In this document: piece by piece, positions 2,699 through 35,365 of the stretch
How positions within the stretch are numbered: position 1 is the first letter of the stretch
Layout of the letters: the number at the start of each line of letters is the position of its first letter
Source of the DNA: Phycisphaerales bacterium
GTDB taxonomy: Bacteria > Planctomycetota > Phycisphaerae > Phycisphaerales > UBA1924
DNA: 64,000 nucleotides
Assembly: GCA_020831775.1 (NCBI GenBank)
Contig: JAFIFZ010000036.1
Span: 1-64,000, forward strand
Direction of reading: 5' to 3'
The notes under the pieces: model-generated
The model's input: only the letters and a program-made list of their open reading frames with translations
Told to the model about the DNA's origin: nothing
Databases searched by the model: none
Position numbers and translations under genes: made by a program

Positions 2699-2771
2699 GG
2701 GGGCGTAGCTCAATTGGTAGAGCAGCGGCCTTTTAAGCCGTTGGTTCAGGGTTCGAGTCCCTGCGCCCCCA
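2699..2771 (+). tRNA. tRNA-Lys (anticodon TTT)
   Basis: Full cloverleaf of 73 nt. The acceptor arm GGGGGCG pairs with CGCCCCC, the D-stem is GCTC/GAGC, the anticodon stem GCGGC/GCCGT encloses the loop CTTTTAA, and the T-arm has TTCGAGT. The discriminator is A2771 and CCA is not encoded. It lies between waaA and the SNF2 helicase. Confidence 0.97.
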
Positions 2772-2826
2772 CTTTCCCGTTCGTGCAGAGGATTGGTCGG
2801 CCCGAAAGGGCGGAGGACGCCGCGGA

Positions 2827-32308: not shown

Positions 32309-33457
32309 ATGGCCTACACCGCACTGGCACGCCGGTACCGCAGCCGCGATTTCGACGAGGTCGTCGGGCAGGAGCCCATCGCGCGGACACTCCGCAACGC
32401 CATCGACTCGGGGCGGGTCTCGCACGCCTACCTCTTCACGGGCACCCGCGGTGTCGGCAAGACCTCCATGGCCCGCATCTTCGCCAAGGCCCTGAACTCG
32501 TCGGGCGAGGCCGGGCCGGTTTCTGACGAGGTCGCCCAGGCGATCATGTCCGGGCAGGATTCCGATGTGATCGAGATCGACGCCGCCAGCAACCGGCGCG
32601 TCGAGGAGACGCGCGAGCTCATCGCCAACTGCATCTACCGGCCGATGCGCGGGCCCTACAAGGTCTACATCATCGACGAGGTCCACATGCTCACGCGGGA
32701 GGCGTTCAACACGCTCCTGAAGACCATGGAGGAGCCGCCCGAGCATGTGAAGTTCATCCTCTGCACGACCGAGGCGGACAAGGTCCCCCCGACGATCCGC
32801 AGCCGCTGCCAGCGGTTCGACTTCCGCAACATCCCCACGCGCGAGATCGCCCGCCACCTCGCCGAGATCGTCGAGAAGGAGGGGCTCAAGGCCGACCCCG
32901 ACCTCGTCCACCAGGTCGCCCGCCTCGGCGACGGGTCGATGCGCGACGCCCTCTCGCTGATGGACCGCCTGATGGCCGCGGGCGAGAAAACCCTGACGCT
33001 CGTCCTGCTCGAACGACTGCTCGGCCTGCCCGCCCGCGACACCGTCTCCGCCCTGATCGACGCCGTCGCGGCGGGCGATCCCAAGGCGGCGCTGGAGGCG
33101 ACCGACAACCTGCTCTCCCGCGGCAACTCGCCCGAGCAGATCACCGAAACCCTCGCCTCACGATTCAGAGACCTGATGGTCATCGCCGCGTGCGGGCCCG
33201 AGACCGACCTTGTTGATCTCGCGGGCGATTCGCGTGCAGAGGAGGTCGAGCGGGCGACGCGTTTCGACGCCGCGGGACTGATGCATCTGGTCGCCCTCTG
33301 CGAGAGCGTGCAGCGTCACATCAAGTCGAGCGCCTCGCCCCGCGCCCTGCTCGATGCGGCGGTCGTCCGCCTGGCGATGAGCGAGCGGATCGCAGACATC
33401 GCGGCGATCGCGGCCGGGCACACGCCCCAGCCGGCTGGAGCGCCGCCAAAAAAATGA
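32309..33457 (+). CDS. dnaX: DNA polymerase III subunit gamma (short DnaX product)
   Basis: Clamp-loader ATPase of the replisome; the unshifted reading gives 382 aa. Walker A is GTRGVGKT near 45-52, Walker B IIDEVHML near 120, sensor 1 CTTEAD near 152 and the Arg-finger region TIRSRCQRFDFR near 165. The Cys4 zinc module normally found between Walker A and Walker B is missing: KALNSSGEAG carries no Cys. The frame ends in CCA AAA AAA TGA, a frameshift site that leads into the tau extension. Confidence 0.95.
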   Translation: MAYTALARRYRSRDFDEVVGQEPIARTLRNAIDSGRVSHAYLFTGTRGVGKTSMARIFAKALNSSGEAGPVSDEVAQAIMSGQDSDVIEIDAASNRRVEETRELIANCIYRPMRGPYKVYIIDEVHMLTREAFNTLLKTMEEPPEHVKFILCTTEADKVPPTIRSRCQRFDFRNIPTREIARHLAEIVEKEGLKADPDLVHQVARLGDGSMRDALSLMDRLMAAGEKTLTLVLLERLLGLPARDTVSALIDAVAAGDPKAALEATDNLLSRGNSPEQITETLASRFRDLMVIAACGPETDLVDLAGDSRAEEVERATRFDAAGLMHLVALCESVQRHIKSSASPRALLDAAVVRLAMSERIADIAAIAAGHTPQPAGAPPKK

Positions 33458-33485
33458 CCGAGGCGTCGGCCCAAAGGCCGGCGCC
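33437..33485 (+). promoter_or_regulatory. dnaX programmed -1 ribosomal frameshift signal
   Basis: Three elements in canonical geometry. GGAG at 33437-33440 is an upstream SD-like stimulator. The slippery A-AAA-AAA is at 33448-33454 in the zero-frame phase CCA AAA AAA TGA. After a 7-nt spacer, a 10-bp stem (33462-33471 with 33476-33485, one G-U pair, CAAA loop) follows. After a -1 slip the next codon is ATG at 33454, continuing for 182 residues. Transcriptional slippage on the A7 run could give the same product. Confidence 0.85.
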
Positions 33486-34002
33486 GCCGCCCCCCATCCA
33501 AGCGCAGCGGGCTCAGGAGCCCACGGGTGCGCCCGCAGCGCCGACACCGCCCCCCGCGTCGGCCGAGCCCAAGCCCGCTCGCCCGCCCCAGAGCGCCGGC
33601 GAGCTGTTGCAGTCCGCGATCGGCGCCGCGCCGTCGATGCGGATGCGGATGATGCTCGAAAAGCTCGCCCCGATCGGGCTCGACGACGGCGTGCTCAAGG
33701 CCGGAGTCGCCCCGGATGTGCGCAACCTCGTCGAGATGAGCCGCGGCACCATCGAGGGCCTGCTCGCTCAGGCGGCTGGCCAGCCGATCCGGATCGAACT
33801 GCAAGCCTCCGAGGCGGAGTCGCCGCAGGCCGGCTCTGGCTCCGAGCCCGCGTCCGAGAACTCCCGGCGGCAGGTCGCGGGCGCAGGCGAGACCGGATCT
33901 GCCGCGGCCGATCACCCCCTCGTCAAGCGGGCCCGCGAGCTGTTCGACGCGGGGATCGTCAATGTCCGACCCAAGCAGTCTGGCCCCCGGGCCGACCGCT
34001 GA
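33454..34002 (+). CDS. dnaX: Tau-specific C-terminal region of DnaX (reached by -1 frameshift)
   Basis: Encodes the 182 residues that extend gamma to tau, for a total near 564 aa. It begins with a Pro/Ala-rich linker (about 60 residues), then a folded part (residues 60-110) that fits DnaX domain V-like regions contacting polymerase and helicase. A final charged segment ends at 34002. The ATG overlaps the gamma stop as ATGA, so separate translation is an alternative, but the slippery run and stem favour a fusion. ybaB follows, the usual gene order. Confidence 0.8.
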   Translation: MTEASAQRPAPPPPIQAQRAQEPTGAPAAPTPPPASAEPKPARPPQSAGELLQSAIGAAPSMRMRMMLEKLAPIGLDDGVLKAGVAPDVRNLVEMSRGTIEGLLAQAAGQPIRIELQASEAESPQAGSGSEPASENSRRQVAGAGETGSAAADHPLVKRARELFDAGIVNVRPKQSGPRADR

Positions 34003-34026: not shown

Positions 34027-34386
34027 GTGTTCGATTTCAAGACCATGGGGGCGATCGCCTCGCTGCTGAAAGATCCAAGCAGGCTGCGCGAGACCCGAGA
34101 GCGCATCCGATCGCGCGTCGAGGAGGTCCGCGCCGCCGCGGAGGCCGGGGGCGGCGCCGTCCGCGTCTGGGTCAGCGGCACGCTCAAGGTCGAGTCGATC
34201 GAGCTGAGCCCCGCGATCACCTCCGCCGGCCCCGAGGGCGGCCAGATGGCGGGCGCGCTGATCGCCGAGGCGGTCAACACCGCGACCGATATCGCCAAGG
34301 ACCGCGTCCGTGTCATTCTCGAAGAAGAGGCCTCGGCGCTGGGCTTCACCAAGATCCCTGACGAGATCACGGGACTCTTGCGGTGA
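34027..34386 (+). CDS. ybaB: YbaB/EbfC family nucleoid-associated protein
   Basis: Dimeric DNA-binding protein of 119 aa. The N-terminal helix with basic residues is followed by the strand-rich core (VRVWVSGTLKVESIELSP) and a C-terminal helix. GCGGAG precedes the GTG at 34027. It follows dnaX with a 24-nt gap, matching the widespread dnaX-ybaB pairing; recR, the usual third gene, is not next. Confidence 0.9.
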   Translation: MFDFKTMGAIASLLKDPSRLRETRERIRSRVEEVRAAAEAGGGAVRVWVSGTLKVESIELSPAITSAGPEGGQMAGALIAEAVNTATDIAKDRVRVILEEEASALGFTKIPDEITGLLR

Positions 34387-35230: not shown

Positions 35231-35365
35231 GTCCGGCTGAGAGGCCGGGCCGAAAGAACAACAAGCCGGGAGCACGGGCAGCAGCCCGCCTCGGCACGGA
35301 CAAGACTGCCCCGATTTCGCCGCCTCCCCCTCGTCCCGGGCGCGGATCGGGGCAGTCGTTTTTTT
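35231..35365 (+). ncRNA. Candidate small structured RNA with intrinsic terminator
   Basis: The 5' end GTCCG (35231-35235) pairs with CGGAC (35297-35301), GAGGC (35241-35245) with GCCTC (35288-35292), and CGGGC-AGCA-GCCCG (35275-35288) forms an inner hairpin. A 12-bp terminator stem (35304-35315 with 35346-35357) and seven T follow. Alternatively a frame from GTG 35227 to 35367 encodes 46 basic residues after GGAGG, but its last third would lie in the terminator. No known RNA family fits. Confidence 0.45.
35304..35365 (+). terminator. Intrinsic terminator
   Basis: Perfect 12-bp stem GACTGCCCCGAT/ATCGGGGCAGTC with a 30-nt loop, one G, then TTTTTTT. It ends the candidate RNA and also any transcript reading on from the NUDIX gene. 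Confidence 0.85.

Follow-up and report, generated by a model that had tools for sequence, protein, structure and literature searches.

The window analysed here, a stretch of 64,000 nucleotides from a Phycisphaerales bacterium (contig JAFIFZ010000036.1), contains a dnaX gene whose initial reading frame stops at a run of seven A, where a second frame continues one base back. If ribosomes slip at this run, then a short (gamma) and a long (tau) product would both be made from the gene; without a shift, there would be no tau. An earlier note on this DNA had described the junction as a canonical -1 frameshift cassette of the Escherichia coli type. The locus raises the question of how the second frame is expressed, and the junction was compared with those of relatives.

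A frameshift cassette at the end of the gamma frame

The frame-0 ORF (32309–33457, plus strand) encodes a product of gamma length (382 aa) comprising an AAA+ ATPase, a lid, and domain III. Its identification as dnaX was borne out by a profile search (TIGR02397, E = 1.7e-115), by the Pfam domains DNA_pol3_delta2, DNAX_ATPase_lid, and DNA_pol3_gamma3, and by a PDB search in which the product matched E. coli gamma/tau (2.5e-69). The last codons of the ORF are CCA AAA AAA TGA: the slippery heptamer A_AAA_AAA (33448–33454, plus strand) lies in frame-0 phase and is directly followed by the TGA (33455–33457, plus strand) that ends gamma. A GGAG (33437–33440, plus strand) resembling an internal Shine-Dalgarno (SD) stimulator precedes the heptamer by a gap of 7 nt, rather than the 8 nt previously given, and the 16S rRNA 3' end of the same genome has CACCTCCTTT. 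After a spacer of 7 nt (33455–33461), folding energy points to a 10-bp GC hairpin with a CAAA loop (33462–33485, plus strand). The hairpin alone has -20.9 kcal/mol (z -4.83; none of 200 shuffles is as stable); folded with 71 nt of context, the region has an unexceptional total energy (z -1.16; 30 of 200 shuffles are as stable). The in-phase A7, adjacent stop, spacer, and stem-loop are as the earlier note had them, and the locus has each part of a -1 frameshift cassette: an in-phase X_XXY_YYZ, an upstream SD-like element, and a hairpin 5–9 nt downstream.

The -1 frame ORF (33454–34002, plus strand) encodes a tau-specific tail of 182 aa, which matches the end of the dnaX model PRK14965 (E = 1.8e-8) and in which no Pfam domain was found. 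The product sizes are 382 aa in frame 0 and 564 aa with a -1 shift, in agreement with those proposed before. The ATG at the start of the -1 ORF, which overlaps the frame-0 stop, is probably incidental. Automatic annotation would be likely to record DnaX as truncated and the tail as a hypothetical protein of its own.

What goes beyond chance is the place and phase of the A7, not the A7 as such. Within the window, AAAAAAA occurs twice against 0.46 expected, and at least two copies are present in 12 of 100 shuffles; the 3.55-Mb genome has 67 + 35 overlapping matches on its two strands. Apart from the dnaX run, the window has one A7, at 35359–35365 on the minus strand. Among the 135 family ORFs described below, an in-phase X_XXA_AAN is found at 11 of 49,919 codon positions in the upstream part and directly before the stop in 135 of 135. 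Phase counts over the last 40 nt (140 in the shift phase, 105 and 8 in the other phases) are non-discriminating, because an A7 run matches again one base later. An assembly error at the A7 is unlikely, because a second genome of the window's genus (L083) has an identical A7.

Proposed route to gamma and tau

Ribosomes in frame 0 would read A_AAA_AAA, halt at the TGA, and release gamma (382 aa). A fraction of them would be held at the site by pairing of GGAG with the anti-SD behind and by the GC hairpin ahead, both Lys tRNAs would re-pair one base back, and reading in the -1 frame would give tau (564 aa). The efficiency of the shift would set the gamma/tau ratio, and tau would presumably be needed. 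The tail of E. coli tau connects clamp loader and polymerase, and a tail with this presumed role would arise here solely by frameshifting. Taken with the comparisons that follow, the sequence makes it very probable that the window's dnaX undergoes programmed -1 ribosomal frameshifting with the polarity reversed.

Conservation of the slip site

One dnaX locus per genome was compared in 268 genomes: 143 from the family (of 153 genomes with a match, the others having partial genes or contig ends), 24 of 24 from the order outside the family, 56 of 82 from the class outside the order, and 45 of 69 from the rest of the phylum. For class and phylum, genomes with short ORFs were taken by preference, which inflates the share of short ORFs there. 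Loci were called short from the length of the frame-0 ORF, not from the motif, and some of the genes counted as long are truncated at the edge of a contig (L312, L262, L266, L363).

A short frame-0 ORF is present in 135 of the 143 family loci, from 64 genera, and every one of these has an in-phase X_XXA_AAA heptamer: 109 are A7 and 8 are A8 (117 A-runs), 16 are G_GGA_AAA, and 2 are C_CCA_AAA. The stop lies 0 or 3 nt 3' of the heptamer in 131 of the 135. The named relatives with 63–68% identity (L003–L009, Phycisphaerales or Planctomycetota metagenome genomes) all have a short frame-0 ORF with a same-phase run, which is A7 in six and A8 in one. The site is likewise occupied by a run or heptamer in all eight long family loci (A9 in five, A8, A7, and A6 followed by C in one each). 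The locus with the A6 run (L146 of genome G137, on a single contig) has a frame-0 ORF of 704 aa and a match to the tail HMM described below in the +1 frame; this may reflect a sequencing or homopolymer indel, or else a real change or a broken gene.

Outside the family, the order has 16 fused genes, and each shows a run or heptamer at the corresponding position; the same is true of all 24 loci from the rest of the order (19 A9–A10, four A7, one G_GGA_AAA). In the rest of the class, where short ORFs are overrepresented, A9–A10 is found in 48 of 56 loci (38 long, 10 short) and A8 in one. No run or heptamer was found in 36 of the 45 loci from the rest of the phylum.

Stimulators alongside the heptamer

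Tau could also be made without a ribosomal shift if, as in Thermus dnaX, transcriptional slippage at the A7 added one A to the mRNA or removed two. This possibility is favoured by the class and order relatives examined, of which 48 of 56 and 19 of 24, respectively, carry A9–A10 runs at this site, and both slippage and ribosomal frameshifting are already known for dnaX (PMC1088944, PMC3711429). The same relatives provide a natural control for ribosomal stimulators, and the 67 order and class loci with A9–A10 runs were used as the control set. An SD-like core at a gap of 6–12 nt is present in 119 of 135 short family loci and in 11 of 67 controls, compared with 15–18 of 135 and 6–8 of 67 when three other gap ranges were counted. 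Mean anti-SD pairing energy in A7 loci has a peak of about -6 kcal/mol at a gap of 6–7, and in controls it is about -1 to -3 kcal/mol throughout. Similarly, a hairpin of -16 kcal/mol or better was found in 106 of 132 family loci (shuffles 27%; three of the 135 were dropped because their downstream DNA is too short) versus 7 of 67 controls (shuffles 7%). The family hairpins mostly start 6–7 nt past the heptamer, and downstream folding z is -1.63 in 107 A7 loci versus -0.21 in the 67 controls. When hairpin arms were swapped among 59 genera, an arm with its own partner reached -21.8 versus -15.1 with that of another genus (shuffled null -13.2 versus -9.9), a mean advantage of 6.7 kcal/mol compared with 3.0–3.5 in the shuffled null; exceptions were g73, in the opposite direction, and g7, which was neutral.

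Some loci count against the frameshift reading: 16 of 135 have no SD-like core at a gap of 6–12, and 14 of 132 have no hairpin of -12 or better, a value that shuffles of this GC-rich DNA reach in 51%. Among the 67 A9–A10 relatives, neither SD-like core nor strong hairpin was found above background. Judged from these sequences, heptamer, SD, and hairpin co-occur and are not general traits of dnaX in the class. The enrichment of both stimulators only alongside the heptamer speaks against transcriptional slippage, as does the lack of any homopolymer longer than four at the site in 18 of 135 family loci, where G_GGA_AAA and C_CCA_AAA retain tandem re-pairing but not a homopolymer. Known slippage motifs, as characterized in PMC3711429, are often eight or longer or combine two shorter runs. 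Transcriptional slippage is thus an improbable source of tau in the window. A check named in the earlier note, for loss of the A-run or stem in relatives that keep both frames, came out in favour of its reading: the same 18 loci have no A-run, yet they have another slippery heptamer in its place. The note's proposal that gamma and tau arise through a programmed -1 shift gains support from the heptamer in 135 of 135 loci and from the co-occurring stimulators.

The -1 frame and the tau tail

Of 102 fused DnaX tails, 84 are matched by an HMM built from the -1 tails of 60 genera (order 16 of 16, long family loci 7 of 8, class 34 of 43, phylum 27 of 35), and none of the 135 loci gives a match in either of the other two frames of the same DNA. 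These matches indicate that the -1 frame encodes the DnaX tail that relatives carry fused and that the other two frames do not. The 126 closed tails are 61 to 252 aa long, nine family tails being left out as cut by the end of the available stretch or shorter than 60 aa, and 120 of the 126 keep a C-terminal proline-hydrophobic-V/I/L/A motif. Between the window and L083 the tail has 22 substitutions, distributed 10/2/10 over the codon positions, a pattern that lends selection in the -1 frame little weight. Only the C-terminal end of the tail aligns in L003–L006, the folded part being absent; the tau tail of these several genera is reduced to a proline-rich linker and a C-terminal motif like DPLVKSVLDVFEGEIKRVHPK. 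The short C-terminal end may be the part of the tail kept by selection.

The tail could instead be a separate protein of 182 aa, if ribosomes stopped at the TGA and restarted at the overlapping ATG. The window has an ATGA overlap that would suit such reinitiation, but an ATG, GTG, or TTG lies within 5 nt of the stop in only 25 of 135 family loci, and none lies within 30 nt on either side in 89 of 135. In the window, GGAG is 13 nt from the ATG, which is a long SD-to-start distance for initiation. Reinitiation also leaves the invariant in-phase heptamer unexplained, and it is very improbable. That a mutation split the gene, leaving only the short product and a decaying remnant, is hardly credible: although some relatives' tails are short (minimum 61 aa among the 126 closed), the tail is open across the family and homologous to fused DnaX tails, with its C-terminal motif kept in 120 of 126 and the slip site in 135 of 135.

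Comparison with known recoding systems

In E. coli dnaX, frame 0 encodes tau and a -1 shift truncates the product to gamma, according to PMC3711429. The window's locus resembles it in the gene itself, the place after domain III, the in-phase heptamer, the SD-like element, the hairpin, and the adjacent stop, and the earlier comparison with E. coli holds for this anatomy. It does not hold for the product logic, and 'canonical' is the wrong term there: frame 0 stops at 33457 and yields gamma, 382 aa long, and tau depends on the shift. A further difference from E. coli (A_AAA_AAG) is the final heptamer base, which is A in all 135 family loci and G in none.

A gamma stop in frame 0 at the site and a tau tail in the -1 frame, as found here, are characteristic of two-ORF dnaX genes, where tau likewise needs a -1 shift (PMC3711429, PMC5009743). 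Antonov et al. (2013, PMC3711429) give 17 such genes from 12 genera, nine with A10; the A10 genes are ascribed to transcriptional slippage, and the table includes two planctomycete genomes. For dnaX of Chlorobium phaeobacteroides, PMC5009743 states seven As and E. coli-like stimulators, as unpublished data. Unlike the 17 published genes, the loci described here include non-homopolymer heptamers, come from 64 genera of one family, and show returns of polarity within that family. The slip site is at the same place as in Thermus thermophilus dnaX (A9 slippage), but here A7 or G_GGA_AAA / C_CCA_AAA is combined with ribosomal stimulators, and the window's site, an A7, falls short of a Thermus-type run of at least nine. 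In insertion-sequence -1 cassettes, too, the longer fusion product needs the shift (PMC4066793), and those with A_AAA_AAA share the SD and hairpin; unlike their transposase genes, dnaX is a chromosomal replication gene.

A search of the open-licence literature by title found no dnaX recoding in this group except in PMC3711429, and a search of that literature for Phycisphaer with ribosomal frameshift found no report. Reverse-polarity -1 frameshifting in dnaX is a known kind, and the sequences make it well supported here. What is new is the family-wide conservation, the non-homopolymer heptamers, the matching gain of stimulators, the returns of polarity, and the link to the tRNA set.

History of the site

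In a quick tree of 155 DnaX N-termini (SH-aLRT support only, 58 of 152 inner branches below 80, L146 omitted), on which gain and loss are readable only with an outgroup root, the window's family is one clade (SH-aLRT 99). The first family branch consists of three genera with E. coli polarity (support 89 and 84 at two forks). All other family genera are reversed except g61 + g83 and g72, which return to E. coli polarity together with A9. On the tree, polarity has to change 3 times within the family and 14 times elsewhere in the order and class, and the first letter of the heptamer 8 times.

On a simple reading, A9–A10 slippage, as read from Thermus, would be ancestral in the class and the ribosomal heptamer would have come later; direction would hardly matter for A9–A10 slippage. 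The tree thus suggests that in the window's lineage an A9–A10 run of Thermus type was replaced by a ribosomal heptamer. The chances are about even for a fuller scenario, in which dnaX of one class would have given up transcriptional slippage (A9–A10 without stimulators) for ribosomal frameshifting at X_XXA_AAA, aided by SD and hairpin, with the site kept. The family's tau would have been left slip-dependent, with later returns of polarity, and tRNA-Lys CUU would have made an AAG-ending heptamer unusable, so that only AAA-ending ones were kept and the tRNA set dictated the slippery code. If so, one recoding mechanism would have given way to another in dated steps, in many genera and at one site of an essential replication gene.

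Lysine tRNAs and the last heptamer base

All 135 family heptamers end in AAA, whereas 1635 of the 1994 lysine codons further upstream in the same ORFs are AAG; in the 18 non-homopolymer heptamers, no run forces the final A. In E. coli, AAG is the ending of the best heptamers (PMC4066793), and a single lysine tRNA reads both AAA and AAG (PMC5009743). The window carries a tRNA-Lys (UUU) at 2699–2772 (plus strand, ARAGORN), the tRNA expected to slip on AAA, and its genome also has a tRNA-Lys CUU (L415). A CUU-type tRNA-Lys pattern is present in 55 of 61 family genomes, and ARAGORN confirmed tRNA-Lys(CUU) in 26 of the 30 family loci fetched. AAG would block slippage, because a CUU anticodon could not re-pair with AAA. 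The presence of tRNA-Lys CUU besides UUU is therefore a possible reason for the final A, which would tie heptamer choice to the tRNA-Lys set, a testable connection. Two reports on E. coli count against the frameshift reading: A_AAA_AAA is less shift-prone than A_AAA_AAG (PMC5009743), and G_GG.A_AA.A was inefficient in earlier work cited in PMC4066793, which elsewhere places it among the more efficient motifs of insertion sequences.

Other features of dnaX loci

A phage search gave only matches below 60% identity. Directly downstream of the tau tail, a 119-aa ORF (34027–34386) is YbaB/EbfC-like (TIGR00103, E = 1.9e-7, below the model cut-off), and such a gene is the usual neighbour of dnaX. In the dnaX genes of two loci from another family of the phylum (L271 and L272, genomes G253 and G232), a second A9 run lies four codons from the first, and either run has a -1 stop 2 nt past its in-phase heptamer. 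Additionally, residues ~60–95 of the window's DnaX (32309–33457) are without the four zinc-binding cysteines usual in DnaX. By a pattern count, which matched all but 23 of the 143 family loci, this segment has 0 or 1 cysteine in 120 family loci and in all 24 loci from the rest of the order, compared with 4–6 in 54 of 56 loci from the class and 42 of 45 from the phylum. The zinc module of DnaX thus seems to have been lost in the order.
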